From the NCBI RefSeq assembly GCF_011074885.1, contig NC_054689.1:2872443-2936442 (forward strand): a DNA stretch of 64,000 bases, in the 5' to 3' direction. The stretch is from Brettanomyces bruxellensis (lineage: Eukaryota; Ascomycota; Pichiomycetes; Pichiales; Pichiaceae). Each line of letters starts with the position of its first letter. Position 1 is the stretch's first letter. A program made the position numbers and the translations under genes. The notes under the pieces were generated by a model. It saw only the letters and a list, made by a program, of their open reading frames with translations, did not search any database and was not told where the DNA came from. Shown here piece after piece: positions 38,333-63,529 of this stretch.

Positions 38333-38404
38333 TTCCGAAACCGAGAATCGAACTCGGATCTGGACGGTGAGAGCGACCTGTGATAGCCATTACACTATTT
38401 CGGA
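38333..38404 (-). tRNA. tRNA-Glu, anticodon CTC
   Basis: The minus strand folds as a standard 72-nt tRNA. The acceptor stem pairs TCCGAAA with TTTCGGA, followed by discriminator A. The A box is TAGTGTAATGG and the B box GTTCGATTC. The anticodon loop CTCTCAC gives anticodon CTC. The layout matches yeast tRNA-Glu closely, including its 72-nt length and no intron. A gypsy LTR begins 12 bp upstream of the 5' end, at the place where Ty3-type elements integrate. Confidence 0.95.
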
Positions 38405-38416
38405 TTTCATATCTCT

Positions 38417-38524
38417 TGTAAATGGTCGGACTGAATGTAACAAAATATTATTTTTTATAACCTGAAGTATAAGGATTCTTTAGATGATTCCCAAATCCGT
38501 CTAAAGATATATAATAGATTATTA
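38417..38524 (-). repeat. Element C 3' LTR, part 1 (outer end)
   Basis: This 108-bp piece is nearly identical to 56384-56491 of the C 5' LTR. It starts TGTAAATGGTCGGACTGAA and is cut off by the start of the element A LTR. It lies 12 bp from the tRNA-Glu gene. Confidence 0.85.
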
Positions 38525-39134
38525 TGTCGGACATATGAGAATATTACCTAGTATTAGGTAATCTATTATTATATGTCATTAGATTTATTTGTTTTGAGAT
38601 CTGAACTTATTCTAAAATAACGAAGATTTAGAATAATATCTAATAGAGACAATCCTGGATAAAATGCACTAACTGTGTATGTTAGGGAATCAGCAGAAAA
38701 ATAATTATGCGCGATCATAATTCTGTTTCTGAGAATTAAATCTTTTTTTTTATTATGTATGATTACCTCACTTTATTTTCCTTTTTATTTTTACTTTACT
38801 TTACCTCTTTTTATATAACTTGTTTCTTCTACGAAGGGACGAGACCCGATAGCCTATTTTGCAATACAACTAGTTCGACTCCACTTTGATGGTAACAGAG
38901 TAAAGGAAGTAAATTCATTTTCTTCTATGGTGATACATACACAATTGTTAGAATGTTAAAGGCATTAACATTATCACACAGACCACTTGGTACATTTATA
39001 TCCACCCACTTAGGTAACCGACCTTACAATTGTCTGAATCTCCCCGACTGCTAGGTTCTTATTAGTTCTATTAAAGAAGGAGTTTGATAGCTAAAGCCCG
39101 GGAGTAACTCATAAGGTCTCTCTTAACTCCGACA
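38525..39134 (+). repeat. Element A 5' LTR (610 bp)
   Basis: Runs from TGTCGGACATATGAG to AACTCCGACA and is repeated at 51460-52070 and, truncated, at 58465-59002. Confidence 0.95.
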
Positions 39135-39150
39135 TGGCGTCACAGACAGG
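39135..39150 (+). other. Putative primer-binding site of element A
   Basis: The sequence TGGCGTCACAGACAGG starts at the first base after the LTR. TGG is the complement of a tRNA CCA end. It predicts a priming tRNA whose 3' acceptor strand is CTGTGAC with discriminator G. I could not assign the tRNA. Confidence 0.6.
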
Positions 39151-40268
39151 ATAACCAATTTGTGTGATTTTTGTGAAGAGGCAGATGTGTATGCCATCTT
39201 TTTTTCTTTTGAATTTAGTTGAGAATTCTACGAGAAGGAATTTTTTATTATGTCTACTGAATTTCTCTCAAGAAAAATTCTCGCTTGATGAAAATATTTT
39301 CAGGTTATGCCTCCTGGGAAAATTTTCTAAGATCCGTTATGAGTGTTAACAGATTGAGAAATTTGTGTAGATCGCTGATCATATCGATTACATAATCTCA
39401 TTCATATTATCTTTATCAGCTGGTTTTTAACTGAGCTTCAGATACATTATTTCGATGCTTAAAGATGTTTAATGATTCGTTTACTTTTCAAGTGAAATCA
39501 TATTTTGCTGCGCGTGAATTGTTGTTATCTCAATTTTGAGTCAAGGAAGCTGTTCCTACTCGATATTCTTAACGAGATGATCTCATATATATTAATCAGA
39601 AATTTGTCAGAAATGGAATTACTACCAAACTCTGCTATTGATGAATAGAGCTGCTTATGCAAATGGAATTTTGTTCATAGAATACTGCAAGCCCTACTTA
39701 TTATTCTGGGAACTTACGATTGTGACAAACATTGAATTACATCAGGATGGTTTAGGAATGTTTTAGATGTTATCAGGCATGATGATTATTAGAAGCCTCT
39801 TTAGTGTTTATGTCAACATCATTGACAATGTCATTACATCTATAAAATGGTGTAGTTGCTATCACGGGGATACAGATATTTTGGCCCATCTTAGACCCGG
39901 TGTCGCTGAATCGATTAAAGGAAATTGTTCAGAATTTGATGAAATAAACGACTTAGTTGAATTTAAGAAATGGATCGAAAGAAAAGTCAAGTCTAAACGT
40001 AATGCTGCGATTGTTTCGAAGTCGCTTTCCAAGTCAATCTTTGTGACTTCCAACAAGCAAGGTTATTCCAGCATTTCGAAAAACAAGAAAAGACAAGAGC
40101 CGCCGAATAATAACCGTTCGCATGGATCTGATCATTAGAAGAAGGATCAATCTAACAAAGGCAAGAAGAATGAGAGGAAGGAGAATATGAATAATGTCAA
40201 ATTGAGCGATGAATCTACTAATATCTCCGAGTTACAAGTCCTAGGCAGCGTGCCAATGGATAGTTTGA
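39151..40268 (+). pseudogene. Element A gag region, apparently degraded
   Basis: Most of this interval has stops in all frames. A frame at 39767-40138 (123 codons) looks like the end of a copia Gag: EFKKWIERKVKSKRNAA followed by a basic Lys/Asn/Ser-rich tail, closed by TAG. The same frame stays open after that TAG up to 40302. Pol is in a different frame (+1 relative). A functional element would be expected to have a long open gag, so this copy is either mutated or depends on products of other copies. Confidence 0.55.
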
Positions 40269-41787
40269 ATACTCCGAGGCATTCGAGATTTTATCTTAAT
40301 TGATAATGGCGCTGCCATTAGTCTCACAGGTCATAGGGAATGGCTACATGATTACATGCCTTTCCGCAAGGACGATAAAGTTTTCTCTGTTGGTTATGAC
40401 GATAGTCAAAAGAAATTGGAAGGTTCCGGTAGGATAATCTTTAATTACATGGGAAATGTTCTTACACTCTACCTACACTATTATGAGGGTGCTCCTACTA
40501 TCTTTTCAGAAGACGATATCAACCGTTGCCCTGAATGCCGAATTCAGACCTACTTTCACGATTTTGGTACCAAATCTCAGACTTATTCAAAGGTTCTCAA
40601 TGTTGGAGATGAATGTATTCAGTTAGTTCAAGTTAACAAGCTATGGTATATACCAGGTGATTTTAATCAGTTTATGATTGGTGGAGGACAATTGCATATA
40701 AACAACTTACATCTTAAATTGGCTCATGCTAACCCTAGGCTAATCAAAAAGTCTATTAATCATGGGACGATTACTGCTTCGAAGAAGGAAATAAAGGAAC
40801 TTGATGAATTGCTCAGCAAAGGTTGTGTTGATTGTATGGAAGCGAAGGCAAGACGAGCAAATGCTATAGAGGGTTCAAGAGACTATTACCTGCGTCCTAT
40901 TCCTTTTGATGTTGTTTATTCCGATGTTTGCATTGTCAAGACGCACACGAGTGTTGGCGAAATGGGTTGCTTTGTTACTTTTAAGGACCAATATACTAAG
41001 TATACAACGGTTTTTATGATGAAACACAAGAGTGATGTTGCTCGTGCAGTTGATAAATACGTTCGATGGGTATCAAACCAATTTAGCAAGGAAGGATACA
41101 GAGTGCATAAAATCTTCTCAGATAAAGGTACTGAATACTTAAATGCTGAATTGAAAACCATATTAGAACGTGAAGGTATTGAACTTCATACTACCTCCGG
41201 TTATACATCTGCGTCTAATGGTGTTNCTGAACGCTTGAACTTAACGATTATGAATGATGCGCGTGCCATGTTGCATTCTGGTAAAGTTTCTCACAATTTT
41301 TGGAAGGAAGCTGTGCTATATTCAGTATTTGTCAGGAACAATCTCGTGAATGATAATATTGGAACCAGTCCGTCACTTAAACTCAAGTTTATGTCTCCCA
41401 AAACTAAGGATTTGCATATCTTTGGTGAACTTTGTGAGGTTACTTACCCTCCGAAATACACACCTAAGCTTGGGGAAAGGGCTGTTCAGGGCATATATCT
41501 TGGATGGAGCAATGAAACCTTTGGTTGCCAAGTCTTCATCCCGAATACGCCAGGAGACACACGTTACGGTACATTTACGGATACACGCCATGTTCAATTT
41601 ATGAACCCGTCTGTACTTTATACAGACTATTTTCTTACACCTCAATCACGCGTGGATGATTCATTGCAGTCACTTTATGATCCAAGAATTGAGATTTTTG
41701 CCGATCTATCTGCTGATGATGCATCAAGTGATATTTCTTCTGAGGTGCCGAGTATTGTTGGATTATCTGAAGGTCAGAATGCGTCAT
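40269..41787 (+). CDS. Element A pol, protease and integrase part (disrupted)
   Basis: This frame carries a protease-like motif FILIDNGAAISL at 40290-40325, where the usual D-S/T-G is D-N-G, and then integrase. A His/Cys zinc-binding region (HLKLAHANPRLIK...CVDCMEAK) is followed by the catalytic core: Asp in YSDVC (about 40922), Asp in FSDKG (about 41119) and Glu in the VxERLN motif (about 41229), with 35 residues between the last two. The base just before the Glu codon region is an N (41226). The first ATG is 40356. The frame is cut at 41787 by insertion of element B; the codons that follow to 41981 belong to the LTR of B. Confidence 0.85.
41783..41787 (+). repeat. Target site duplication of element B, left copy (GTCAT)
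   Basis: GTCAT directly precedes the 5' LTR of B and is repeated directly after its 3' LTR at 48588-48592. Confidence 0.97.
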
Positions 41788-42881
41788 TGTTGAAGTTGAA
41801 GATATGTGATCAGCTAAGTATGCTTGTAAAGGTATATAATAACAAGAACGAATATTGTTCTGAAATAAAAATACCTGATACAACAAAAGTATACTTAGTT
41901 GTAAACATAAGCTTGGAAGTAAAATTTACAGTAGAGCAGAACGATGAGACCGCGATAGTTTTGACGGCGAGGAAAAACTGAGCAGAAACTTGATTTTCTG
42001 AATTGGTCGATAGACGCGTCGATATTGGTCGAAGCGTTGGGGAAATCGATGAGAGAAAATCGTGCTGGCTTTATCCGGCATGGTTTGATCTTTGAAGAAA
42101 ATCGAGCAAGCTAACTTATGAGAATTAGGTTGCTAGTTCGATTAAGGGAGCTTGTTACAGTGATCAATTTGGTTTGATCAGCCAGCGCAAGTTGGTTGAT
42201 AAAATTGACAAATGAGTTTCTACGCATTTGGCTTTGGCCGGCATGGTCAAGTCAACGAACGGTGGATCTTGCATCTGACGGCTTTATTCGGCAATGTCAG
42301 GTTAACTATGGGTTCCCGGAGCTGAGGTCGAACTGAGCGCAGTGCTCGGGAAGTTCCGACGGGATCCTAAGACTCGGCTGGGAAACGGGAATAGTTACCC
42401 CACTTGGCGTAGGTATTACGGGATCAATTATTGACGAATAAAAGATCATTGATCATTGTTGCTGCAGCAAGTTTCAGAATGTGCAGAATCACCTGATTCG
42501 GAGGCATTGTTCGTCTGGGAAAACAAAGGAAAATGGTGGCTGCATTTTCTGGTCTGGGAATCGTTGTGCAGGAAATTTACTGTAGTCAGGACAGATATAT
42601 ATAGTAGTGTCTCTGCCCTGAGTGTCTTATGACTGATACTTCGCTTTGAAATATGGATGGACAACGAATTAACGAGTTTCTAACGAGTTAACGAATTAAC
42701 AAGAAAATTAACTGTTTCTACAAGAATTGTTGATTTTTGTTAGTGATCTTACAAGACTATATTTGATACAAAGCACTTAAGTATTGACAAGCTTAAGTTA
42801 TCTGAGGACACGTTATATAATAGTATATAGCACAGGTAACACGACTCAATAAAGGAAAATTTGAGGAGGGCAAATTTATCA
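41788..42881 (+). repeat. Element B 5' LTR (1094 bp)
   Basis: Starts TGTTGAAGTTGAAG and ends GGGCAAATTTATCA. It is near-identical to 47494-48587 and to the inverted solo LTR 57366-58459. TATATATAGTAG (about 42596) and an AATAAAGG (about 42849) are candidate promoter and polyadenylation signals. Confidence 0.96.
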
Positions 42882-43018
42882 GATTTCCAATCTTTCCACT
42901 TGTCGATAAATTTTTTGTTGAACTGATTTTTTGAGAAAAAAAAAAAAAAAAAAAAAAATTTATCCTTATTTTTTTTTTACTACCTTACACCTAAAATTGT
43001 TATCTATTTTATCAAATT

Positions 43019-46000
43019 ATGTCTTCGTCTACTAGAAATGAAACTAGCGCCAGAACTGCTGGCTCTGATGTTGAAGTTGTTGGTGAAATTGAAAAGGAAC
43101 CTAGAGATTATGCCAAAATCTTAAGGAGGATCAATGCTTCTCTTACTGGAAAGGGTATAAAGAACTTATTTGTTACTGGAGCTCACAACGCAAAGAAGGT
43201 TAATTCCATCATGTTCTTAAGGTTTGTCAAGGACTGGATTATTGGGGTTTTACGCAAGGATTCTCATGACACCATTGACTTTGATGACGTCAAGATGATG
43301 TTGGACTTGGACGTGACCTTGGATAGAAGGACTGAAAGAGGCCTATTCTGGGATATCATTGACACTGCCTTGAGGGAACAGTTTTCTCCAGATTTGGTAC
43401 CGCAATTGAATGAATCAGATGGATTGGATCTTCTTACTATGTTGAATCAATTGTACCAGTCGATTGTGGAGTCTCCCCTTGTGATTCAATACTGGGAAGA
43501 GGATTTAGCAAGGTGTAATTGTACACCTGGATCCTCTGTGACACTTGTGGAAACTTATCGGGAAGCTTGCGATGGTTATTTTTATAATTCAACTTTTAGT
43601 CTTTGCTGGATGATGTATAGAGGCCATAAAGAGTTGTTCCCAAAAGTGTTAAATGTTTATGAGTATGGTACTCAATGCAGGACTAAGCCTTGGTACGAAA
43701 ACCTTGATTTGATGAAGTTAACTTGGGAGAAAGTTTTGCGGAGCAATGCATCTGTTGTTGAGTCAGTGAACAGTTTGAGTTTGAGATCCGACCGGAAGAG
43801 AGAGAGGCATGATGATCAGAGAAACAAGGCTGCTGGAGGTGATCATTCGAAGAAGAAGAGGAAGAAAAACCTTCAGAAGTTGAAATGTTTTGGGTGTGGA
43901 CAGCGTGGTCATCTCAAGCATGATTGCCCTAACAAGCAGAAGGGTGGTCAGAAGAAGGGCAATGGTGGTAAAGATGAGGGAGACAGTCAGCATAATTACT
44001 GTTTCACTGTGGAAACTGTTGCTCATGTCGAAAATGTTGAGAGGAATGGTGACACTGAACATTTAAATGTGGAAGATGCTGATTTCATTTTGGATAGTGG
44101 TGCTACTTGTCATGTTGTGAAGGACGCCTCGTTATTGCGGAAGACTAGGAAGGCTAATGTCAAAATGAATTCTGTTTCGGGTGCCAAGAATATGGAAACT
44201 TGGATTGGCACTGTTGATTATGGATCGTTGACGCTTACTGATGTATATTTAGTCCCCGATAGTCAGCACAACATTATTTCGGAGATCGTGATGCTTGATC
44301 ACGGGTATGACGTCAAGAAAACCAGGGATTTGGCAGTTGTTGTTAAGGATGGTCATGAGATTCTGACTGCGCATAGAGGTTCTTCGGGACTCTTCTTGGT
44401 TGATGAACCGGCGCATGCCACGGTGTTGGTTGTCGAAGCCTTGACGGATGAACTATTGCAGATGCATCGGAATTTTGGTCACGTGTCGGCAAATCAGATG
44501 TACACATTATGCCGGGAAAAACTGGGAAGAAAGGCGTCTAAGGATATGATTAGGAAAGCGTTGGCTGGCTGCGAGACTTGTTCTAAGGAAGTGAAGTTGG
44601 CACATGGTAAAAGTCACGTGAGTACTGCACGGAAGCCGGGCGAACTCATTTGTACGGATGTAATAGGCCCCGTTTTCGGTAAATACGGACTTTTGATGAC
44701 GGATAAGTTTTCCTCTTTTATGATTGGTTATGTCCTCGACAGCCGTGCTGAGGTTTCTTCAAAGACAATCGATGGTCTTCGGACTTTTATTAATCTTTTG
44801 AAGTTAGAGAACCGGTCACCCGTCTATCTTAGGTCGGATAATGAGTTTAGGACGAGGGAACTTGAGAGTTTCTTACGTTCGCAGGGTATTATTGCTGAAT
44901 TCTCGTCTCCACACAGTTCCTACCAAAATGGGAAGGCGGAAAAATCGAACCGTGAAATTGAGGAACGTATCAGGAAGCTGTTGCAGAGTTCTGGGGTGCC
45001 TAAGTCACTCTGGCCTTATGCTTTTTCCCACAGCATCTTTCTCAATAATATGGTACCGAGAAATCATAATACAAGAAACCCTGTCAGTCTTTTGAAGAAT
45101 GCTTCTATTGAAATTCCCTCTAAATTGTTACCTTTTGGATCGGAGATTTATCTCTACAATTATGACCGAGTCCAGAAGTTGTTCAAGGAAAATCATAGGT
45201 GTGTTTTTCTAGGCTACGGCGGAAATGGAGTTGTTCCTACGGTTTCGCAAGTTGTTGCTTACCGTCTTGATACCAAGAAGGTCATTAGGTCATCGGCTTT
45301 CAAGGCTTCTGCTGAGAAATATCCATTTTTGCAGATGAAGTCTTCAGGGAACATTGGATCAGTGCCTACTGGAGTTGGTGTTGGTTTAATTTCTGGAAGT
45401 GGATCCTTGCCAGTTGTTTTTGGCTCAGGAAACGATGGTCCGGTATCGGAGAACAAGGAACTCAAGCGTGGTGTGGATAGTTCAGGTAATGGAGTTGCGA
45501 ATACTAGCAATGGAGATGCCAATTCTTCGGTTTCTGACGTCTCTCCATCAGTGAAGGATGCTTTTGATGATGGGAGTCGCTCTTCTGTTGTTGATAGTCA
45601 AGGTGGATCACCTGAAGTTAATGCTGGTAAGAAGAATTCTGTTGTTGATAAACCTGTTGGTCCAAAGCCGCCTCACATGGCAACACCCGCTGACTTTCCC
45701 CCGGACACGATGCAAGATATTATTTTTCATCGGTCAGCTCAGATGTCTGCGTCAAAGAGGAAGATGATTCATGATTATGTGAAGAAGAAACGCAAGAGAC
45801 TAGAGTTTAAGTATCTTCAAGATGACGGTCGATCTCGTGAGGTGAATATCGTTGTTGTGGAAGGTAAGTATGCGATTCCAAACACTTTTAAGCAGGCTAT
45901 GAATACTCCAGAGCGTGATCAGTGGCGTGCTGCCATTGAAGCCGAATTAGCTTCGTTTAAGTCTAGGAGTGCGTACAATGAAGTACTTCGGATCAAGGTT

Positions 46001-47482
46001 CCGAGGTCAGCTAATGTGATTACTGGGCGTTGGGTTTTTCAGGTTAAGAAGGAGCCGGATGGTTCAGAGAGATTTAAGGCTAGATTAGTGGTGCACGGAT
46101 ACAGCCAAATTTCGGGCAAAGACTACATCGAAACCTATGCTCCTGTGATGAAGCTTGATAGCTTTAGAATGGCTCTTGCCCTTGCTGCTGAGCGAGGCTG
46201 GAAAATTCGTCAGTTAGATGCCAAGAATGCGTTCCTCTATGGCAAGTTAGACCACACGGTATACCTCTGTCCTCCCGATGGCGTGCCTGTTCGTGAAGGT
46301 TATGTTTGGGAGCTCAAACGTGGAGTCTACGGTTTAAAACAAGCGCCTAGGATCTGGTATGAAACCATTAGCGAGGTTTTGGAGAAGGGAGGCTTTAAGC
46401 ATGCAGTTAAGGAGAGATGTTTATTTTACAAGAAAAACTGTATCATGGTCATCTATGTGGACGATATTATTATAATCGGTGCTAAAAAGTCAGACCTAGA
46501 CCAGGCCACAAGTGTTTTATCACATTCTTTTCACATGAAGAATCTGAAAGAGCCAAAGATATTTTTGGGCATGACTCTAGAGTGCAAGAGTGGCCGCATT
46601 AAACTTTCGGCGAAGGACACTATAGAGAGGATTTTGGGAAATTTGGATATTGATCTACCCAGAAAACCTCTTGGAACACCCATTCCCCTCTCTTATGATT
46701 TGATAGGAGAGGATACTCCGTTGTTAGACAGTACCAGGCACAGTGAGTATCGATCTGTCGTGGGTATGTTGCTATACATCAGCAATACTGTTCGATTTGA
46801 TATTGCTTACCATGTTTCTGTTCTTGCGAGCTATGTGAACGCTCCTAGGGAGATTCATTACAAAGCTGCTGAACGTGTGCTTGAGTATCTTGGTCAAACG
46901 AAATCTGCCGGAATTGTTTATCGTAAGCACGGGCGGATGTCATATGATCGTGAAGATTTTCAGTTTATAGATGCGACTGGCGATGCTACCATAAAAGTGT
47001 ATCCACCAGAAACTGAATATGTGGTCACTGGATATACGGATGCTGATTGGGGAAAGGCTGGTGATGGAAAGTCACAGTCTGGAGGACTTATTGCACTAAG
47101 AGGCAACTTGATCTCTTGGTTATCACGGAAACAATCTGTGGTGGCGCAGTCGTCTGCAGAGAGTGAATTGATTTCAGCTAATGAGGTAGCCTGTCATCTT
47201 TGTTTTTTCTCGGAGTTGCTTAATGAAATGAAACGTCCGGTTGAGTATGCAAATTTGTGCGCTGACAATCGTTCTGCGTTGACTTTGAGTAATCATTCGG
47301 GAATGAATAACAAAACGCGCCACATCAAGTTGAGGTATTTTCATATTCAGGATTTGGTGGCTAAGAAGGAGCTAAGGCTATGGTACATCAGTGGTGAAGT
47401 TAATCCTGCGGACATTATGACTAAGAGATTGGCTCCAAAGAAGTTTCGTTCTATGACTGCAAAATTATTGGAACTTAACTGA
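43019..47482 (+). CDS. Element B Gag-Pol polyprotein
   Basis: A single 1487-residue frame holds the whole copia order: Gag (1-285), zinc knuckle CFGCGQRGHLKHDC from residue 290, protease with Asp359-Ser-Gly in LDSGAT, integrase with His/Cys finger (HRNFGH...CETC, about 480-525) and core residues Asp547, Asp607 and Glu641, a low-complexity Ser/Gly/Asn linker (about 770-880), reverse transcriptase with YVDD at 1146-1149, and RNase H (SGGLIALRGNLISWLSRKQ to the end). There is no stop or frameshift between gag and pol, unlike Ty1. The excess of Gag over Pol must therefore come from another mechanism, as in other single-frame copia elements. The leader has a run of about 24 A at 42937-42958. Confidence 0.95.
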   Translation: MSSSTRNETSARTAGSDVEVVGEIEKEPRDYAKILRRINASLTGKGIKNLFVTGAHNAKKVNSIMFLRFVKDWIIGVLRKDSHDTIDFDDVKMMLDLDVTLDRRTERGLFWDIIDTALREQFSPDLVPQLNESDGLDLLTMLNQLYQSIVESPLVIQYWEEDLARCNCTPGSSVTLVETYREACDGYFYNSTFSLCWMMYRGHKELFPKVLNVYEYGTQCRTKPWYENLDLMKLTWEKVLRSNASVVESVNSLSLRSDRKRERHDDQRNKAAGGDHSKKKRKKNLQKLKCFGCGQRGHLKHDCPNKQKGGQKKGNGGKDEGDSQHNYCFTVETVAHVENVERNGDTEHLNVEDADFILDSGATCHVVKDASLLRKTRKANVKMNSVSGAKNMETWIGTVDYGSLTLTDVYLVPDSQHNIISEIVMLDHGYDVKKTRDLAVVVKDGHEILTAHRGSSGLFLVDEPAHATVLVVEALTDELLQMHRNFGHVSANQMYTLCREKLGRKASKDMIRKALAGCETCSKEVKLAHGKSHVSTARKPGELICTDVIGPVFGKYGLLMTDKFSSFMIGYVLDSRAEVSSKTIDGLRTFINLLKLENRSPVYLRSDNEFRTRELESFLRSQGIIAEFSSPHSSYQNGKAEKSNREIEERIRKLLQSSGVPKSLWPYAFSHSIFLNNMVPRNHNTRNPVSLLKNASIEIPSKLLPFGSEIYLYNYDRVQKLFKENHRCVFLGYGGNGVVPTVSQVVAYRLDTKKVIRSSAFKASAEKYPFLQMKSSGNIGSVPTGVGVGLISGSGSLPVVFGSGNDGPVSENKELKRGVDSSGNGVANTSNGDANSSVSDVSPSVKDAFDDGSRSSVVDSQGGSPEVNAGKKNSVVDKPVGPKPPHMATPADFPPDTMQDIIFHRSAQMSASKRKMIHDYVKKKRKRLEFKYLQDDGRSREVNIVVVEGKYAIPNTFKQAMNTPERDQWRAAIEAELASFKSRSAYNEVLRIKVPRSANVITGRWVFQVKKEPDGSERFKARLVVHGYSQISGKDYIETYAPVMKLDSFRMALALAAERGWKIRQLDAKNAFLYGKLDHTVYLCPPDGVPVREGYVWELKRGVYGLKQAPRIWYETISEVLEKGGFKHAVKERCLFYKKNCIMVIYVDDIIIIGAKKSDLDQATSVLSHSFHMKNLKEPKIFLGMTLECKSGRIKLSAKDTIERILGNLDIDLPRKPLGTPIPLSYDLIGEDTPLLDSTRHSEYRSVVGMLLYISNTVRFDIAYHVSVLASYVNAPREIHYKAAERVLEYLGQTKSAGIVYRKHGRMSYDREDFQFIDATGDATIKVYPPETEYVVTGYTDADWGKAGDGKSQSGGLIALRGNLISWLSRKQSVVAQSSAESELISANEVACHLCFFSELLNEMKRPVEYANLCADNRSALTLSNHSGMNNKTRHIKLRYFHIQDLVAKKELRLWYISGEVNPADIMTKRLAPKKFRSMTAKLLELN

Positions 47483-47484
47483 TC

Positions 47485-47493
47485 AAGAAGGAG
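47485..47493 (+). other. Polypurine tract of element B
   Basis: AAGAAGGAG lies directly before the 3' LTR, the position used to prime plus-strand synthesis. It starts just after the gag-pol stop codon. Confidence 0.8.
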
Positions 47494-48587
47494 TGTTGAA
47501 GTTGAAGATATGTGATCAGCTAAGTATGCTTGTAAAGGTATATAATAACAAGAACGAATATTGTTCTGAAATAAAAATACCTGATACAACAAAAGTATAC
47601 TTAGTTGTAAACATAAGCTTGGAAGTAAAATTTACAGTAGAGCAGAACGATGAGACCGCGATAGTTTTGACGGCGAGGAAAAACTGAGCAGAAACTTGAT
47701 TTTCTGAATTGGTCGATAGACGCGTCGATATTGGTCGAAGCGTTGGGGAAATCGATGAGAGAAAATCGTGCTGGCTTTATCCGGCATGGTTTGATCTTTG
47801 AAGAAAATCGAGCAAGCTAACTTATGAGAATTAGGTTGCTAGTTCGATTAAGGGAGCTTGTTACAGTGATCAATTTGGTTTGATCAGCCAGCGCAAGTTG
47901 GTTGATAAAATTGACAAATGAGTTTCTACGCATTTGGCTTTGGCCGGCATGGTCAAGTCAACGAACGGTGGATCTTGCATCTGACGGCTTTATTCGGCAA
48001 TGTCAGGTTAACTATGGGTTCCCGGAGCTGAGGTCGAACTGAGCGCAGTGCTCGGGAAGTTCCGACGGGATCCTAAGACTCGGCTGGGAAACGGGAATAG
48101 TTACCCCACTTGGCGTAGGTATTACGGGATCAATTATTGACGAATAAAAGATCATTGATCATTGTTGCTGCAGCAAGTTTCAGAATGTGCAGAATCACCT
48201 GATTCGGAGGCATTGTTCGTCTGGGAAAACAAAGGAAAATGGTGGCTGCATTTTCTGGTCTGGGAATCGTTGTGCAGGAAATTTACTGTAGTCAGGACAG
48301 ATATATATAGTAGTGTCTCTGCCCTGAGTGTCTTATGACTGATACTTCACTTTGAAATATGGATGGACAACGAATTAACGAGTTTCTAACGAGTTAACGA
48401 ATTAACAAGAAAATTAACTGTTTCTACAAGAATTGTTGATTTTTGTTAGTGATCTTACAAGACTATATTTGATACAAAGCACTTAAGTATTGACAAGCTT
48501 AAGTTATCTGAGGACACGTTATATAATAGTATATAGCACAGGTAACACGACTCAATAAAGGAAAATTTGAGGAGGGCAAATTTATCA
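47494..48587 (+). repeat. Element B 3' LTR (1094 bp)
   Basis: Same length as the 5' LTR, and differs by one base noticed (A at 48349 against G). Followed directly by the GTCAT duplication. Confidence 0.96.
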
Positions 48588-48592
48588 GTCAT
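48588..48592 (+). repeat. Target site duplication of element B, right copy (GTCAT)
   Basis: Matches 41783-41787. Removing B and one copy restores an uninterrupted element A reading frame. Confidence 0.97.
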
Positions 48593-51486
48593 CTATTCCT
48601 GTTGACAGAAAGCTCTACGACGATGCTGCTATGGAGACCGAGCTATCTGAAGATGATGATCATTCGATTGTGACAGAGCCCACATTGCGTGCTGGCAGTC
48701 CAATTGTATCCAGTTCAGACGATGACTACGAAAGTGATTCTGACTGGGTGCCAGATTCAGATGATAATTCAGACATACTGTCTACTACTTCTTCTACGTC
48801 TGAGGACTACTCTGATGATATTGAGAGCGCTGCCGACTTACGTGAAGTCTCAAACTCAGAGGAACCTCAGACTATCCAAGCATCAGACGAGAAGCCTACA
48901 GCGGAAACTACTATGCTTTTCGACTTGGATGCAGGAGATCACTCAACTCCTCAACTGCATTACAGGAAGCCAAACTTTAAGAAGCCTGCCAAGGGTACTA
49001 AACCCAAGAAAGTTTCATCGAAGCCCGCTCCTAATGCGAAGCGTTCACCTATGGTTGGTCATGCTGGTAAGATTAAGGGAGCGAAGCATTCAATGCCCCA
49101 AGCTCCTAAGGAGAACGTTAAAGCTGAGAGATCTACTGCAACTTCTACTGACGACAACCCTGTTGTCGGTGGAAAGGAATCGAACAATCTTGCTACTTCC
49201 AGAGTGACAGTTCCTGAAAATATGGAAGCACTGAGCACGTTAAATCGTCCGTTGCCCGTGGTCGAACCTGAGAAATTTGCAGTTTCTGATTCACCAAGTT
49301 TAAATGCTGGTGAAAAGGATTATCAGAGACTAACTGGACACAATCACACGGAGTCCAAGCATCATACTACGACCAGGCATCTTAACATCCCTTTACAAGC
49401 AGAACATGAAGATGATCGAGCATTACTCAACTCGTCATTGGATGGAGAAGTCAATCATTCTAAGTTACCTCAAGTTACTTCACCTCATGATACTTTGGCG
49501 GACAAATCCGGATCCTCTGGCCATAAGATATCATTTCAAGTGATTCCTGCGACTTCTGCTGGTGAAAAAGTGAAGACCGAGAAGGGTTCAAGCCGTTGGA
49601 ACAAGTCCAAATTCTCTTCCTTAGAGCCTTTTAGGACTGGAACTCGTTTATCAAGAAAACATACTTATGATGATCTTGTGAATGGGGACACCCGTTCCTC
49701 GGTGCCGTTGATTAACAGCACTCCTGGCGAATCTTCTGCTCCTGAGCGTACCTATATGGTTGCTCGGAAGAAGCCACGGATTTTTCAAGTGTTGTTAAGC
49801 GACATTTATCTCGCAGCTAATCCGAAAGGTTACAAACAAGCGATGTGCAGCAAGGACGCTGCAAAATGGAAGGCAGCAATTGATGACGAGTTTCACTCTC
49901 ATCATATACATAACACATGGGATCGCAATCCAATTCTTACAGATGATCCGAAAATTTTGAATTGCTGCGTCTCCACAAGTTGGGTTTTTACCGTTAAATC
50001 TGATGGTCGACGCAAAGCACGTCTCGTTGCTCGCGGTGATCACCAGAAGGAGAATACATATTCAATTACATTTTCTCCAACTCTTCGACCAGAGATCATG
50101 AGAGCGATTTTTGCTCTTATTGCTACTCAGCATTGGTTTATGGCTCAGTTTGATGTCAAAACTGCTTATCTATACAGTCCTATTGATACCGAATTGTACA
50201 TTTATCAGCCTCAAGGGTATTCTACCCACACAAGGCATGCAAAAGTGCCATCCGGCATGAGGGTGGTCTATAAGCTTAACAAAGCTTTATATGGTCTCAA
50301 GCAATCGGGCAATTTGTGGCATAAGGAAATTCAGAAACATTTGGCCAAAATTAATTTTGAAAGTTCCCACCCTTTTCCATCCACCTACATTCATAAGAAT
50401 CGGAATGGAAAAGTCGATTGCGTTGTTGGTTTATTTGTGGATGACATTATTGTTGGCGCTTCGAATAAAGCTATACTGGACAAAGTTTACAAACATATAT
50501 CTGGTAAATATGAGCTTAAAACGATCCAACCTGATAAGAAGACCAATTTACAGAAGTTTTTGGGGATTGATCTCACTGTGGAAAGATTAAAGGATGGTCG
50601 TGTGAAAAATATTAAGCTATGTCAGTCTGCCTATATCGAAGAATTCGTTGAGAAGCTTCACCTTACTTTTGCTAGAAGCTGTGCTACTCCGTTAAGTCCA
50701 AATTTCTACTTCGATACTGCGGGACATCCGTTAGAAGCTACTAAGGAGATGCTTAATAAGGCAGTCAGTGATTTTCGACGCAAAATTGGTTGTTTATTAT
50801 ACGTCGCGGTTATGACAAGGCCTGATATTGCTTATGCTGTTGATTACTTAGCGCGTTTTTCGACGTATCCTCATCGTCTAGTCGTTGATCAGTTGAAACA
50901 TGTTTTAAACTACCTCTATCATAGTCGTTTCAAATCTATCATTTATCAACACACTTCGGAAACTAAAATGGATCATTTGATTTGCTACTCAGATAGTGAC
51001 TATGCTCAAGATCCGATTACAAGGAAGTCCATGAACGGATTTCTCATCATGTTTTCGGATGCACCTCTCTATTGGAAGTGCCAGTATACCCCATTGGTCT
51101 GCAAGTCATCTACTGAGGCGGAACTTCAGGCAATTTACCTACTTTCTAATGAGCTTGAATGGTTTCACCCTCTCATGAAGTTCATGTCCGCTTATCAAGG
51201 CGAAGGAAATTATCCTGAACTTTTAGTGGATAACAAATCCGCTGTTGATACGATAGTTTATGGTAACTTTTCACCAAAATCAAAGCCATACGCTGTCAGG
51301 TTGAAATGTTTAGAAGAACGATTTGAAGAGAAGCGTTTCATTATCAAACACGTTAGTACGAAGGACCAGTTAGCTGATATTCTTACTAAACCTATTACTA
51401 CCAAGGTATTGGGTAAGTTAAGGAGCATGATTATTCAGATGCTACAAATCAAGGGAGCGTGTCGGACATATGAGAATATTACCTAG
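48593..51486 (+). CDS. Element A pol, reverse transcriptase and RNase H part (disrupted)
   Basis: This is the continuation of the frame broken at 41787; the phase is conserved across the insertion. The first in-frame ATG is 48631. An acidic then Lys/Ser-rich linker (about 1-370 from that ATG) leads to copia RT: WVFTVKSDGRRKARLVARGDHQ, FDVKTAYLYSPID, LNKALYGLKQSGNLWHKE, and the catalytic FVDD with Asp604 and Asp605. RNase H follows (SDSDYAQDPITRKSMNGF, KSSTEAELQAIY, VSTKDQLADILTKP). The stop lies 27 bases inside the 3' LTR. The domain sequence resembles the Ty1 group more than element B does. Confidence 0.88.
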
Positions 51487-52070
51487 TATTAGGTAATCTA
51501 TTATTATATGTCATTAGATTTATTTGTTTTGAGATCTGAACTTATTCTAAAATAACGAAGATTTAGAATAATATCTAATAGAGACAATCCTGGATAAAAT
51601 GCACTAACTGTGTATGTTAGGGAATCAGCAGAAAAATAATTATGCGCGATCATAATTCTGTTTCTGAGAATTAAATCTTTTTTTTTTATTATGTATGATT
51701 ACCTCACTTTATTTTCCTTTTTATTTTTACTTTACTTTACCTCTTTTTATATAACTTGTTTCTTCTACGAAGGGACGAGACCCGATAGCCTATTTTGCAA
51801 TACAACTAGTTCGACTCCACTTTGATGGTAACAGAGTAAAGGAAGTAAATTCATTTTCTTCTATGGTGATACATACACAATTGTTAGAATGTTAAAGGCA
51901 TTAACATTATCACACAGACCACTTGGTACATTTATATCCACCCACTTAGGTAACCGACCTTACAATTGTCTGAATCTCCCCGACTGCTAGGTTCTTATTA
52001 GTTCTATTAAAGAAGGAGTTTGATAGCTAAAGCCCGGGAGTAACTCATAAGGTCTCTCTTAACTCCGACA
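51460..52070 (+). repeat. Element A 3' LTR (611 bp)
   Basis: Same sequence as 38525-39134 apart from one extra T in the T-run at about 51679. Confidence 0.95.
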
Positions 52071-52568
52071 GAATCATTCTATTCATTCATTATTCTATCT
52101 AATCACTTTTTTNTCTCCCTCTCTCTTTCTAGAAAAATAACTAAATCATAATCTAACCTTGCCTCTGTATCACAGGAGGGCAAGGGCGCATATTTATATT
52201 AAATGGAGAATGACACTTCTTCCATTTCTCTTCCAATTTCATACAATAACAAATTGTATGCCAAAGAGGAATCCATCCTGTTTGGGAACATCACATTATG
52301 TGAATTCAGCATAACCCGCGATCATGCAAAAACCTGTTGTTTTGCATATGCAGTCGCCACACGAATATTAGTCAGTTTATTCCGATGTAGCTCTTTCTTA
52401 TTGTCTTTCGGATCACTATCCTTTCAGTACGCTTTATTTCTTATTCGCGCTTCTCATAAATTATTTCGGAAACTATTTATATCTTTCCGTGTTACCTAAT
52501 CAGGTAAATGAATTCATTAATATTTTATCTGGCTTTAAACCAATATGCGCTTGGTTTGACCCCTTACA
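52071..52568 (-). repeat. Element C 3' LTR, part 2 (inner end)
   Basis: Matches about 56553-57060 of the C 5' LTR and ends TTGACCCCTTACA. Compared with that LTR about 60-70 bp are missing at the junction with element A. The plus-strand frame at 52203-52499 also occurs in the other LTR and is not a gene. Confidence 0.85.
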
Positions 52569-52963
52569 TTACCGCCGTTTTTTAGAAAAATCGTCCTCGA
52601 TTTATAATTTTTTAAAATCTCACAAAACATTTAGATATCTTCGTAAGCATTGCCTGGTCTTAGCATATTTCCTTCTTAGGAAAATGAAATCATATGATAC
52701 GTACAAGTATCTGATATCTTTGTTGGAGTCATCAATTCAAACAAACGTTCATAACTAGTCTTAACAATCAAAGTATGTCATAGGTATCTAACAAACATGT
52801 TTTGGAGAGCAATCTTGCTCAAAGACTTCATATGTCTTGTATCAGTTAATACCTGCTATACCAATAATTTCACAAAGTCTGTCTCGAACTTCGAGATCAG
52901 TGTGCGGAGGTTCTTTGGGGTAAATAGCATCTTGCTTTAAGTATGGTTTGAACCATCTTACAT
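52569..52963 (-). pseudogene. Frameshifted 3' end of element C pol
   Basis: After the pol stop at 52966, another minus-strand frame continues the family's expected end: MNVRWFKPYLKQDAIYPKE then PPHTDLEVRDRLCEIIGIAG, up to a TGA near 52844. Element D carries the same region in frame (FNVRWFRHFLQQNAAFPRV). One frameshift near 52975 and later stops thus separate the C-terminal, chromodomain-like tail. The rest, up to the LTR, holds a plus-strand 89-codon frame (52489-52758) judged spurious. A conserved block GATCGAGGACGAT-like precedes the LTR in both C and D. Confidence 0.7.
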
Positions 52964-55900
52964 TCATAGTCCTATTTTTGTAAGGTTGGATCTGAAATCA
53001 ATTTCAAAAGTGTTCGGCCCCTTGGGTCTCACTATCTTAAAAGGTCCATAATAGACTGGTAAAATTTTTTGGTACCGCCGCTTAATACCGAAAGCGTTGC
53101 GGTTGACTAAGACATAGTCACCAACCTTAAATGTATGATCACGTACATGTCGATTATACTGAGCTTCTTGCGAGTGTTGCGACTGGACGATGTTATCTTT
53201 AACCTGTCGACCAATTAATTCAAGTCGTCTCACAAAGTCTTCTGCTCTAGGACTGTAACGGTTTGAGTCAATAATATCAGCGGAGATATGAGCTGGAGAA
53301 TCAGGATTATATCCTTGAGCAACGTAAAATGGACTATAACCTGTCGAATTCTGAATAGCACTATTATAGGCAAACTCTGCCATGGGTAAAATCTTATCCC
53401 AATCATTCAAAGCATTTCGTGCTAACTCTCTAATAAGAGTATCAAGTATCTGGTTAACTCTTTCAGTTTGACCATCAGTCTGTGGGTGATTAGTAGTAGA
53501 CATTAACGTATTCGTTCCCACTAATTTAGTAAATGTGTGCCAAAATCTATTGACAAATCTTATATCCTTATCAGAAACAAGCGTAGTTGGAAATCCATGT
53601 AATCGGTAACTTTCTCTAACAAACAATTGCGCACAGCGTTCCGCATCAAGATTATCATCTGTCGGAATAAAATGTGCCATCTTCGAGAAACGATCAATGA
53701 TCACCATAATCATATTATGATTTTCGTGGGTTCTAGGTAAACCGGTNACAAAATCCATACTAACATCTGTCCAACGTCCGTTTGGCACAGGTAGTGGATG
53801 AAATAGCCCAAATGGCTTTTGAGTGGTTGTCTTACTGCGAGCGCAAACATTGCAAGCTCCACAGAATTTCTTAACCTGTCGTAACATATTAGGCCAATAG
53901 AACATGTCAGATAGTGACAAATATGTCTTCCAATAACTAAAGTGTCCTGCAGACGGAGAATCATGACATTGTCTCATTAGTCGATCGCGGATAATCTTAT
54001 CATTAGGTATTACTAACCTGTGTTCCCCATTTACGCTGGGTGAGAAGTAAAGTAGCTTATTCCTATACAGGAAGTGTTTAATATAGTTCCGAATAAGTGG
54101 ACTAGGTGTCTTATGGTCTTTCAAAGTGTTATAAACCTCTGCAAACTTCGTATCTGCTGAGTATCCTGCTATAATATTTTTCTTAAGAGCTGAGTTCCAA
54201 CGGTTTAATACCAATGTAGCGAGTTGCTGATCAACTGCTGCTTTCTTTAGAACTGCTGATAAGTCAAAGTAAGCGATAGAAGCTAAGGTGACCTCACTGT
54301 CATCCATGGGCTTTAATAACGATAAGTTTGGATACCTGGATAATGAATCAGCCGCTGTATTTGTCTTACCTTTAATATATTCAATTTCAAAATCGAATCT
54401 TGTAAGAAAATCTAGCCATTTCGCAACTCTCATCTGAGACATGGAATTTTGATATTTCACATATTTCAAGCTGCGATGGTCGGTCTGAATAATAAACTTT
54501 TTATCCATCAAGTAATAACGCCATGTTTTTAATGCTTCAACTATAGCTAAAAATTCACGCTCGTAGATCGAATAACGCATCTGAGCTGGTAGTAATTTCT
54601 TTGAACCATAAGCAATGACACCACGAACTTTTCCTTCGGGGTCTAGTTGTTCTAAGACATAGCCTAGCGCTGTCCCGCACGCGTCGGTGTGGATTCTAAA
54701 AGTGTAGTCTCGATCCCATATTGGATGAACTAATAAAGGCGCTGTAATTAAGGCTTGCTTAAGTTTTTCGAAGGCTTGTATCTGTTTATCATACCAAGTC
54801 TCGTTTCCTGCCACATAATTATGTAATGGAACGGCTATCTTCGAATAGTCTTTGATAAATCTGCGATAAAATCCGGTGAGACCTAAAAACGATTGAACAT
54901 CTTTCTTGCTCTGCGGCATAGGCCAATTTTTAACGACTTCGATCTTCTCAGGATCAGTCTTAATTCCATCCGGAGAAATAATAAAACCTAGAAATTTTAA
55001 TTGCGAGAAGAAAAACTCACATTTGCGCTTTTTCGCGATAAGGTGATTCTGTCTTAATAACTCTAAAACCTTTTTCACATGGCCAAAGTGTTCTTCAACA
55101 CTCTGCGAATAAATCAATATATCGTCAATGTAGACCTTCACAAATTTCGAAATGTAAGGCTGTAACACATTATTCATCATTCTCTGAAACGTTGACGGTG
55201 CGTTCGTAAGTCCAAAAGGCATGACAATCCATTCGAAATGCCCGGAGTCCGTAGAAAATGCAGTCTTTTCAATGTCTTGTTCAGCTATCCTGACCTGATA
55301 GTAACCTGACATAAGATCTAGTTTCGAATAAACATTCGCTGCTCCCAAGTCTGTAGTAAGACGCTCAATGTCGGGAATCGGAAACTTATCTTTAATAGTA
55401 TTTTCATTCAAGGCTCTGTAATCAATACACAAACGTAATGAGCCATCTTTCTTCTTAACAAATAACACTGGACTATTAAATGGACTAACGCTTGGGCGAA
55501 TAAATCCCTGGCGCATAAGCTGAGAAACTTGCCGAGTCAACTCTTCTAACTCTGCATGAGATAATTTATATTGCCGACGATAAGCTATTTTATTCGGCTC
55601 TTGAAGAATAATTCTATGCACAAGACTTCTACTTGGCGGTAGATCTGTAGGTAATTCATCTGACACGACATCTGAAAACTCGTTCAAGATCTGTTCTCTA
55701 TAGCTATCTAAGCCTTNAATCTCTTCTTCNGGAGANATAGAAGTATTCTCTGTAGTAAGTGTCTGAATATATAGCATTCGAAAATCGCTATCTTTAGATC
55801 TGATTTCCTTCTGGAATTGCAGATAATTTAATACTGGCACATCTGTGCTTTCTGATTCGGAAACATTAGGTACGCCTATCTTGTTCCAATCAATATATTG

Positions 55901-56311
55901 CTGGTACTTTCTAATAAAAGGTAGACCGAGAAACGTGTCTCGCGTCGGAATATCAATAACATAAAACGAAATAGAAACATTCAATTCAATACTTAGACTA
56001 AGACATAAATTTAACTTAATAGATCCTTCAGTCTTTAAAATATGTCCCACAGCACTAACCTCAAGAGGTAGGCCTGGATCTAACATATTCAGTAGATCAA
56101 AATCTTTAAGAACTTGTAACGAAATAAAATTGGCAGATGCTCCTGAGTCTAAAATAACCTCAGTAGTATATTTGCCGTTAACACAAACAGGAATTTTAGG
56201 CCTTGTGGCCGTCACAGGATCTGAAATATCCGTGANCATCAAGGAATCATGTCCTTCTTTTAACCGCTCTGGTAAGAGTGTATCTATCTTCTGTTTTGTC
56301 TGTTCGCCCAA
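52964..56311 (-). CDS. Element C Pol: protease, RT, RNase H, integrase
   Basis: The 1115-codon frame has protease DSGA at 55-58, RT with YIDD at 394-397, RNase H (HTDACGTALGYVLEQ, TDHRSLKYV), the H2C2 zinc finger (RLMRQCHDSPSAGHF...CGACNVCARSK, about 765-825), and the integrase core with Asp in SMDF, Asp in LVSDKD and Glu in TERVN; 35 residues lie between the last two. The frame has no ATG at its start: it opens after a TGA and would begin at TTG 56311. Only 72 bp separate it from the 5' LTR, so gag is absent. The C-terminus is cut by a frameshift. Unresolved bases at 53747, 55717, 55730, 55736 and 56236 fall within it. Confidence 0.9.
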   Translation of the reverse strand: MGEQTKQKIDTLLPERLKEGHDSLMXTDISDPVTATRPKIPVCVNGKYTTEVILDSGASANFISLQVLKDFDLLNMLDPGLPLEVSAVGHILKTEGSIKLNLCLSLSIELNVSISFYVIDIPTRDTFLGLPFIRKYQQYIDWNKIGVPNVSESESTDVPVLNYLQFQKEIRSKDSDFRMLYIQTLTTENTSXSXEEEIXGLDSYREQILNEFSDVVSDELPTDLPPSRSLVHRIILQEPNKIAYRRQYKLSHAELEELTRQVSQLMRQGFIRPSVSPFNSPVLFVKKKDGSLRLCIDYRALNENTIKDKFPIPDIERLTTDLGAANVYSKLDLMSGYYQVRIAEQDIEKTAFSTDSGHFEWIVMPFGLTNAPSTFQRMMNNVLQPYISKFVKVYIDDILIYSQSVEEHFGHVKKVLELLRQNHLIAKKRKCEFFFSQLKFLGFIISPDGIKTDPEKIEVVKNWPMPQSKKDVQSFLGLTGFYRRFIKDYSKIAVPLHNYVAGNETWYDKQIQAFEKLKQALITAPLLVHPIWDRDYTFRIHTDACGTALGYVLEQLDPEGKVRGVIAYGSKKLLPAQMRYSIYEREFLAIVEALKTWRYYLMDKKFIIQTDHRSLKYVKYQNSMSQMRVAKWLDFLTRFDFEIEYIKGKTNTAADSLSRYPNLSLLKPMDDSEVTLASIAYFDLSAVLKKAAVDQQLATLVLNRWNSALKKNIIAGYSADTKFAEVYNTLKDHKTPSPLIRNYIKHFLYRNKLLYFSPSVNGEHRLVIPNDKIIRDRLMRQCHDSPSAGHFSYWKTYLSLSDMFYWPNMLRQVKKFCGACNVCARSKTTTQKPFGLFHPLPVPNGRWTDVSMDFXTGLPRTHENHNMIMVIIDRFSKMAHFIPTDDNLDAERCAQLFVRESYRLHGFPTTLVSDKDIRFVNRFWHTFTKLVGTNTLMSTTNHPQTDGQTERVNQILDTLIRELARNALNDWDKILPMAEFAYNSAIQNSTGYSPFYVAQGYNPDSPAHISADIIDSNRYSPRAEDFVRRLELIGRQVKDNIVQSQHSQEAQYNRHVRDHTFKVGDYVLVNRNAFGIKRRYQKILPVYYGPFKIVRPKGPNTFEIDFRSNLTKIGL

Positions 56312-56374
56312 GTTATTACCCTCATTTCATGAGTGCTCATGTTCCTGCTGCTGGAAAGTTGAATCTAACCCGAT

Positions 56375-56381
56375 GCTACCA
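56375..56381 (-). other. Primer-binding site of element C (initiator Met tRNA)
   Basis: TGGTAGC on the minus strand is complementary to the GCTACCA 3' end of yeast initiator Met tRNA, the primer used by Ty1 and Ty3. It begins two bases from the LTR end. Confidence 0.75.
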
Positions 56382-56383
56382 AA

Positions 56384-57060
56384 TGTAAATGGTCGGACTG
56401 AAGGTAACAAAATATTATTTTCAATAACCTGAAGTATAAGGATTCTTTAGATGATTACCAAATCCGTCTAAAGATATATAATAGATTAATAAGATTGTTA
56501 TCTGATACTTTTCGTATCCTTTCATATCTCTTATCTCATAGCTCTCTATGAACTATTATATTTTTTCATTATTCTATCTAATCACTTATCTTTTCAATCC
56601 CCCTTTCTAGAAAAATAACTAAATCATAATCTAACCTTGGCTCTGTATCAAAGGAGGGCAAGGGCGCATATTTATATTAAATGGAGAATGACACTTCTTC
56701 CATTTCTCTTCTTCCATTTCTCTTCCAATTTCATACAATAACAAATTGTATGCCAAAGAGGAATCCATCCTGTTTGGGAACATCACATTATGTGAATTCA
56801 GCATAACCCGCGATCATGCAAAAACCTGTTGTTTTGCATATGCAGTCGCCACACGAATATTAGTAAGCTTGTTCCGATGTAGCTCTTTCTTATTGTCCTT
56901 CGGGTCACTATCCTTTCAGTACGCTTTATTTCTTATTCGCGCTTCTCATAAATTATTTCGGAAACTATTTATATCTTTCCGTGTTACCTAATCAGGTAAA
57001 TGAATTCATTAATATTTTATCTGGCTTTAAACCAATATGCGCTTGGTTTGACCCCTTACA
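56384..57060 (-). repeat. Element C 5' LTR (677 bp)
   Basis: Bounded by TGTAA and TTACA; on the plus strand it runs TGTAAATGGTCGG to ACCCCTTACA. It is repeated in two parts at 38417-38524 and 52071-52568. Confidence 0.9.
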
Positions 57061-57064
57061 GGTT

Positions 57065-57365
57065 TGTAAGGGGTCTGCTTTGGTTTGAACCTAAATTATT
57101 TTAGATTATGTAAGTACAAAGTGATTTGTGTGTTTGTTTTGCAGTGTTGAATCAAACCACTAAAAGATGAAGTATTGTATGTTGTAAAATAGTGTTTTTA
57201 GAATGTTATGATGTAATTTAAGTAAGTGCGGAAGTAATGTATAATGAAATAATCAACTAGTTTGTATTCACTAGGATATAGATAAAAGCACCCCTTTGTA
57301 TATGTTTATAATTTGGAGTGTTATTATATTTATTTTAATGACTTGTTTTTTATTTGTTTTGTTTG
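57065..57365 (-). repeat. Gypsy LTR piece of element D type
   Basis: The plus strand at about 57205-57355 is the reverse complement of 63833-63970, which is part of the D 3' LTR. Shared landmarks are GATGTAATTTAAGTAAGTGCG, ATAATCAACTAGTTTGTATTC and AAAAGCACCCCTTTGTATATG (compare, inverted, 63885-63930). The piece starts TGTAAGGGGTC four bases after the C LTR and is cut by the solo B LTR. Confidence 0.7.
57361..57365 (+). repeat. Target site duplication of solo B LTR, left copy (GTTTG)
   Basis: GTTTG precedes the inverted B LTR and recurs directly after it at 58460-58464. Confidence 0.93.
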
Positions 57366-58459: not shown

Positions 58460-58464
58460 GTTTG
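58460..58464 (+). repeat. Target site duplication of solo B LTR, right copy (GTTTG)
   Basis: Matches 57361-57365. The next base begins the truncated element A LTR. Confidence 0.93.
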
Positions 58465-61991: not shown

Positions 61992-62140
61992 TGCGCGAAA
62001 TCCGACACTAAAACGCAGGACCTTCGTCATTATGCTCAGCAATTCAGATATCATAACAAATTACTATATTACACTACTTTTTTGGATAGCGAGTATTCTA
62101 GATTAGCTATTCCATACGATAAAAGATTAAAGATTTACTT

Positions 62141-63454: not shown

Positions 63455-63529
63455 TGCGATTTATAACATTTTGAAATTTTTTTTAAGAGTGGTAACGATC
63501 GAGGACGATCTTTTTGCAAAGCGCGGTAT

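Follow-up and report, generated by a model that had tools for sequence, protein, structure and literature searches.

Nested LTR retrotransposons of three families in a repeat cluster at a possible centromere of Brettanomyces bruxellensis

Three long terminal repeat (LTR) retrotransposons lie one within another near the end of a contig of Brettanomyces bruxellensis, a beer and wine yeast, and the locus raises the question of how such a nest was built and why it stands where it does. The stretch analyzed here (the window, 64,000 nucleotides) is C8:2872443-2936442 of a 13.1-Mb genome assembled in nine contigs (C1 to C9), and its final base, 64000, is the final base of contig C8; positions without a contig name are those of the window. 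A Ty1/copia-type element (B; 41788-48587, plus strand) lies inside another Ty1/copia-type element (A; 38525-52070, plus strand, B included), which in turn is flanked on both sides by LTR sequence of a Ty3/gypsy-type element (C, minus strand). The nest is only part of a longer cluster, of which the window has the left portion; it reaches the contig end and, judging from contig overlaps, probably continues into contig C1. The best explanation, which we consider reasonably probable, is a multi-family LTR-retrotransposon cluster at a possible centromere, in which C, A, and B were differently targeted, A and C were later reshuffled by recombination, and B was primed from the 5' half of tRNA-Ser(IGA).

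The insertion of B into A is the clearest step. Element B is 6.8 kb long and consists of two LTRs of 1094 bp each (41788-42881 and 47494-48587) and one long open reading frame of 1487 amino acids (43019-47482), all on the plus strand. Pol_BBD and RVT_2 were matched in this frame above the Pfam cut-offs, and a zinc knuckle and the integrase core (rve) below them; the weak rve match precedes RVT_2, which is the Ty1/copia order (integrase before reverse transcriptase), and residues 533-720 match an integrase chain of PDB 7z0h (Ty1). Protein searches for A and B returned no named yeast relative. A sequence-only reading of this DNA had reported a perfect GTCAT at both ends of B and a pol frame of A that runs on in phase once B is taken out, and both observations were borne out: the duplication lies at 41783-41787 and 48588-48592 (plus strand), the left frame breaks off at 41787 in codon position 1 and the right frame picks up at 48593 in codon position 2, and two further A copies (contig C6 at ~4.8 kb and contig C4 at ~831.3 kb) are uninterrupted, with a single GTCAT at the unoccupied site. 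Together, the duplication, the preserved phase, and the empty site in those two copies make the insertion of B after A as certain as sequence alone allows, and this is the only clean, readable event of the nest. The one substitution noticed earlier between the B LTRs was found again (1 in 1094 bp), and by this measure the insertion is recent. Dating was attempted and gave 0.07-15 million generations at the yeast mutation rate assumed, a range too wide for an age in years. On contig C6, an A element (L011, L012; C6:1172-2265 and 18145-18507) is interrupted at a single point; both of the ends created there carry B LTR pieces, and the halves are oppositely oriented, as after an inversion between B LTRs.

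Element A has a 5' LTR of 610 bp (38525-39134) and a 3' LTR of 611 bp (51460-52070), and its primer-binding site (PBS; 39135-39152, plus strand) consists of TGG and then 15 nt that are complementary to tRNA-Ser(GCT) at its 3' end. The left part of its pol (40356-41787) encodes the retroviral SH3-like domain PF25597 and a weak match to the integrase core PF00665 below the Pfam cut-off, while the right part (48593-51486), in phase with the left, encodes RVT_2, again in the Ty1/copia order. Element C comprises two LTR pieces on the left (38417-38524 and 52071-52568), an internal region without gag (52569-56383), and a right LTR of 677 bp (56384-57060), all on the minus strand. Its pol frame (52964-56311, 1115 amino acids) contains reverse transcriptase, RNase H, and integrase as well as a weak protease match, in the domain order of Ty3/gypsy (Metaviridae) elements (RVT_1, RNase H, Integrase_H2C2, and rve in Pfam), and is closest among solved structures to Ty3 gag-pol (PDB 7q5b, E 3.9e-184). 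The PBS of C (56370-56381, minus strand; TGGTAGCATCGG) lies two bases inward from the LTR and is complementary to the 3' end of initiator tRNA-Met, as in Ty3.

The left edge of the nest suggests what drew C and A to this place. A tRNA-Glu(CTC) gene (38333-38404, minus strand; ARAGORN, and Rfam RF00005 with 56.3 bits) is the likely target of both: the C-type LTR piece ends 12 bp upstream of the mature tRNA 5' end, and the 5' LTR of A starts 120 bp upstream. Proximity was counted genome-wide against 63 tRNA genes listed by the Rfam model independently of the elements, with the best 40 of 134 candidates scored for A and the best 40 of 64 for C, and with both LTRs of an element counted separately. 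A tRNA gene stands within 20 bp of 7 of the 21 full C LTRs listed (at 11-12 bp; random expectation 0.35%) and within 300 bp of 8 of the 41 full A LTRs listed (at 85-184 bp; random expectation 0.6%), the LTR being upstream in every case, while none of the 32 B pieces has one within 1 kb (random expectation 1.3%). With 12 more tRNA genes from the fetched loci these counts rise to 10/21 for C and 17/41 for A, a list biased by the choice of loci for A and C, on which the distances of A fall into two groups (85-120 and 168-202 bp). Of the 41 listed A LTRs, 14 adjoin C pieces, 4 on both sides (among the C pieces entered in this count, seven were from fetched loci), so that A inside C at a tRNA gene is frequent in this genome. 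C, a Ty3-like gypsy element, would thus insert ~10-12 bp upstream of tRNA genes, and the layering would follow from different targeting by the families. At a further locus (L010; C1:16145-16945), next to a tRNA-Gly gene, a C LTR holds a solo A LTR that is flanked by a clean TAATC duplication, an arrangement that mirrors the left edge of the window's cluster.

The distribution of B is quite different. All 25 genome matches to the first 313 bp of its LTR, and 30 of the 32 matches to the remaining 781 bp, are located in the middle of contig C9 or within ~27 kb of a contig end, namely one end each of contigs C1, C2, C4, C6, C7, and C8; contigs C3 and C5 have no B LTR match. The two exceptions are pieces of one decayed copy at 12.5-13.2 kb of the window, 25 kb to the left of the cluster, where a decayed B-like LTR of about 75% identity (12545-12998) was delineated outside the cluster. 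B, a copia element almost confined to such clusters, landed in A; the insertion itself is read directly from the DNA, and targeting by chromatin would account for the confinement.

Are these clusters centromeres? It is possible that the cluster site is a centromere of B. bruxellensis. The last ~4 kb of contig C8 and the start of contig C1 form an end-to-start overlap (60040-63970, plus strand, corresponding to C1:3-3934; 99.3% identity over 3.9 kb) that probably joins the two, and if C1 follows C8, the cluster extends over ~39 kb and is bounded by the tRNA-Glu gene on one side and a tRNA-Gly gene at C1:16959 on the other. It contains an A+T-rich block (59570-61222; GC 0.217, with a minimum of 0.163 in 500 bp), of which the part from 60040 on is also present at the start of contig C1 and has no other match; this block is a candidate for either a centromere core or a foreign (e.g., mitochondrial) insert. 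The end of contig C4 overlaps the start of contig C6 (7.9 kb at 97%), contigs C1 and C9 share 3.9 kb at 99.2%, and the number of clusters comes to four or five; strain CBS 11270 has four chromosomes according to the available part of the source (PMC6493715). The centromere reading is not new. In the passages available on strain UMY321, solo LTRs were found grouped in regions of up to 40 kb, which were compared with the centromeres of Debaryomyces hansenii and called reminiscent of centromeres, and most elements were called close to Tdh5 (PMC7313668). Those passages neither separate families by cluster confinement nor give primer sites, and they do not mention the nest described here (PMC7313668); the confinement of B, as against the dispersed A and C, is what we add.

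Several observations weigh against this interpretation. CEN1 and CEN2 of B. bruxellensis were described as single-copy, plasmid-stabilizing sequences of ~0.9-1.3 kb, a section heading of the same paper reports their association with centromeric histone H3, and the passages available do not call them LTR clusters (PMC4999066); CEN1 and CEN2 were not placed in the genome here. The A+T-rich block is restricted to the C8/C1 cluster, where the GC trough reaches 0.18; the lowest 1-kb GC of the other fetched cluster stretches is 0.273-0.297. One cluster per chromosome is not proved by the count of four or five. The end of contig C7 and the first 15 kb of contig C2 share 1.9 and 5.0 kb (98-99.9%) in an arrangement that is not end-to-start, and contig C6 has both blocks too. 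As for targeting, 33 of the 41 A LTRs and 14 of the 21 C LTRs have no tRNA gene, among the 63 listed, within the distances stated above.

The rival explanation that survives best is that the B clusters are gene-poor havens, or merely repeat-rich contig ends where insertions collect, and not centromeres. In six of the seven contigs with B it lies close to an end, a place where assemblies break at repeats; the 11 ambiguous bases of the window are all in the cluster, the clusters share blocks, and functional CEN loci were reported elsewhere (PMC4999066). Contig C9 (3.85 Mb), however, has its cluster mid-contig, A and C are equally repetitive yet dispersed, and four or five clusters come close to the four chromosomes of CBS 11270 (PMC6493715). 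We consider this rival rather unlikely, and continue to favor a possible centromere as the site of the cluster.

How A and C came into their present form is less simple than the insertion of B. The claim that A splits a C LTR into 38417-38524 and 52071-52568 stands as regards the pieces, but not as regards a clean insertion. The LTRs of A are complete at both ends (38525 and 52070), yet the flanks are TATTA on the left and GAATC on the right, and 58 bp of C-type LTR between the points where the flanks stop (61 less 3 kept), which are present in 9 of 9 unbroken C LTRs measured, are missing. Among 21 A LTRs checked for comparison, 8 have a 5-bp duplication on the LTR itself, one full A on contig C5 has GCGGA at both outer sides, and 6 of the 11 others are single ends that adjoin internal sequence. 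The GAATC on the right of the window's A recurs as the duplication of an A at C7:541164 and as the right flank of another at C7:631925, both beside C pieces, and an A at C1:16230 lies within a C LTR, at position 573, and has TAATC; from these comparisons, both breakpoints of the window's A lie at or beside places where A inserted elsewhere.

Element C has no target duplication either (flanks TCTCT and GGTTT). A duplication is present at 12 of the 19 other C LTRs checked and absent at 3, and the remaining 4 belong to two complete elements with matching outer flanks (ATTTT and TTATT), whose LTR pairs are 100% and 99.85% identical. The two portions of the LTR pair in the window's C, by contrast, show identities of 93.7% and 96.2% (96% for 38417-38521 against 56384-56488). 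In a comparison of 13 C LTRs, the longer left piece came closest to L038 and L035 (97.8% and 97.4%), the 105-bp left piece to L029 and L033 (98.1%), and the right LTR, which has a 14-bp insertion absent from the 13 others aligned, to L023 and L024 (96.5%), so that the two LTRs carry diagnostic bases of different C sub-lineages. Perfect LTR ends without a duplication in both A and C, the 58-bp gap, and the mismatched C sub-lineages lead us to regard A and C as what look like products of LTR recombination and not two clean insertions; recombination between the LTRs of neighboring copies, after the insertions, would have reshuffled both. It counts against this model that the two A insertions it requires are not both visible.

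Alternatively, A could be a single insertion whose duplication was lost through a flanking or integration-linked deletion of the C LTR, without recombination of two A copies. This would account for the missing 58 bp by one event and agrees with the near-identity of the A LTR pair, but the deletion must halt exactly at an intact LTR end, both breakpoints coincide with or adjoin places of A insertion elsewhere, and the missing duplication of C is left unexplained; we judge it unlikely. Still less probable, in our opinion, is the sequence-only reading, by which C, A, and B inserted cleanly one after another and A and B did so very recently. The duplication and phase at B, the ends of A in C-type LTR sequence, and the near-identical LTR pairs of A and B speak for this order, of which B after A stands; C before A stands in position only, and as a simple story it fails on the absence of duplications at A and C, the loss of 58 bp beside A, and the different sub-lineages of the C LTRs. 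Nor does the recent date hold for A as it does for B. Alignment of both pairs gave what had been noticed, with one gap and zero substitutions for A (38525-39134 versus 51460-52070, a single T), but all 41 listed full A LTR matches are 99-100% identical to the window's A LTR (other full A LTRs in fetched loci, 95-98%). That A is very recent does not follow from its LTR identity, because the family is nearly uniform and the two LTRs of a recombinant need not share one insertion; the proposed dating of both pairs thus came to nothing, being too wide for B and impossible for A if recombinant. An assembly collapse of separate copies, to which the end of contig C8 4.4 kb past the start of the A+T-rich block, the ambiguous bases, and the blocks common to clusters might point, is very improbable overall and unlikely at the B/A junctions, as it cannot create a perfect 5-bp duplication with kept phase, and the neighboring solo B LTR has a duplication of its own (GTTTG).

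The loss of gag in C can be traced to a junction. Internal bases 51-84 of the window's C occupy the place of ~1.1 kb at C9:2660649, where a 348-codon frame matches Retrotrans_gag (E 2.5e-8); at C8:2068061 the gag region is present but split into two frames. The copy at C8:539312-543130 has the same junction as the window's C, removing ~1.1 kb. Its two LTRs are identical and a 5-bp duplication is present, so this gag-less copy probably transposed on Gag from another copy. This reminds us of BARE-2 of barley, an LTR element without functional gag that presumably uses the Gag of another; C differs in being a yeast gypsy element and in that the gag region is absent. Ty3 of Saccharomyces cerevisiae resembles C in inserting a few bp upstream of genes transcribed by RNA polymerase III (12 bp for the window's C), and differs in that the window's C and the copy at C8:539312-543130 are without gag. 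Element A resembles Ty1 of S. cerevisiae, a copia element found upstream of tRNA genes; the PBS of Ty1 fits initiator tRNA-Met, whereas that of A fits tRNA-Ser(GCT).

Element B is unusual in its primer. Its internal region starts with GATTTCCAATCTTTC, and the PBS (42882-42896, plus strand) corresponds to the anticodon stem-loop of tRNA-Ser(AGA) and has C facing wobble base 34. The pattern AAAGATTNGAAATC has 14 exact matches in the genome, compared with one for a reversed control pattern (exact-pattern searches only, by which sites with mismatches would be missed). The three matches with N=A all lie inside tRNA-Ser(AGA) genes; at the single match with N=T, ARAGORN finds no tRNA. The 10 matches with N=G are the window's B and nine others, all nine fetched and none in a tRNA gene, and 9 of the 10 directly follow a sequence ending in CA, as a PBS follows an LTR, with four different LTR ends. 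Five of these nine LTR-flanked sites lie 2.7-3.1 kb from DNA matches to the B pol (64-68% identity), and of the three LTR types other than B, two have copia pol matches nearby; loci with this type of PBS besides B include L070, L072, L074, L075, L076, L079, and L081. L080 (C9:173186, N=G without a CA end) and L073 (C7:994930) have neither an ARAGORN tRNA nor an LTR-like end, and are perhaps chance matches.

Base 34 thus faces C at 9 of 9 LTR-flanked sites, and the three tRNA-Ser(AGA) genes found all encode A there. The wobble base of eukaryotic tRNA-Ser(AGA) is inosine, and to judge from base pairing, C fits inosine and not the A of the gene, either through copying of an edited primer or through selection for pairing. 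B would accordingly prime reverse transcription from the 5' half of tRNA-Ser(IGA). As only four LTR types are involved, the inosine match is a lead, not proof. It is also our tentative proposal, which could well be wrong, that B, as a copia element not of the Ty5 type, seeks out centromeres, and that B and the three other LTR types are primed by the 5' half of tRNA-Ser(IGA), their PBS carrying an inherited A-to-I imprint. The PBS match of B with C opposite base 34 is apparently new; half-tRNA priming with inosine or tRNA-Ser was not found in the titles and beginnings of abstracts searched, a coverage outside of which most subscription papers fall, and the passages of PMC13191261 and PMC2194720 have no bearing on it.

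A close parallel to B is that of the Ty5-like elements at yeast centromeres, copia elements in intrachromosomal LTR clusters whose PBS corresponds to a tRNA anticodon stem-loop, the initiator-Met anticodon site being called diagnostic of Ty5 in the part of the paper available (PMC12711049). The tRNA of B is Ser(AGA), not initiator Met, and a genome-wide search with the exact initiator-Met anticodon pattern, which would miss mismatched sites, found only two initiator tRNA genes. AT-rich LTR clusters are also described in the available passages on Ogataea (Hansenula) polymorpha, of the same order (Pichiales), where the LTRs are short (290 bp) and about half of the copia sequences lie in AT-rich regions (PMC3866509). 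Tj1 of Schizosaccharomyces japonicus, as far as the passages available tell, is directed by RNA polymerase III transcription and accumulates in centromeres via tRNA genes (PMC4600332), and C and A may do likewise; Tj1 is a fission yeast element related to Tf1 (PMC4600332), and its example leaves B unexplained.

To the right of the nest, the cluster continues with the solo B LTR mentioned above (57366-58459, minus strand; GTTTG at 57361-57365 and 58460-58464), an A LTR fragment (58465-59003, plus strand; bases 1-539 of 610), and two B LTR end fragments in opposite orientation (59003-59569; 59003-59171 minus and 59169-59569 plus). Beyond the A+T-rich block follow two dispersed LTR-sized repeats of other families (61223-62015, about 403 and 385 bp) and a gypsy-type pol remnant with integrase zinc-binding and SH3 domains (62141-63454, plus strand). 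An Rfam scan of 37801-64000 found nothing except tRNA. To the left lie another repeat pair (12240-12468 and 20838-21071) and an MPH1-type helicase gene (21512-24607), 99% identical to a B. bruxellensis protein. The ambiguous bases of the window (41226, 52113, 53747, 55717, 55730, 55736, 56236, 57598, 60799, 60800, and 63319) would all fall in the repeat cluster with a chance of 4e-5 under an even spread, so that small LTR differences there need cautious reading. Contigs C2 and C3 have exactly 460000 and 585000 bases, which suggests hand-cut contigs.

The nest itself is ordinary retrotransposon layering. What this one locus offers is a separation of two ways of building a cluster, by families drawn to tRNA genes (C and A) and by a family almost confined to clusters (B). 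Should the clusters prove to be centromeres, candidate centromeres could be recognized by B, as a simple sequence marker, in a yeast that differs in karyotype from strain to strain. A survey of PBSs would test, from genomes alone, whether half-tRNA priming records modified bases in element DNA, and if the imprint reading is true, the DNA of these elements would record an RNA modification of their host.

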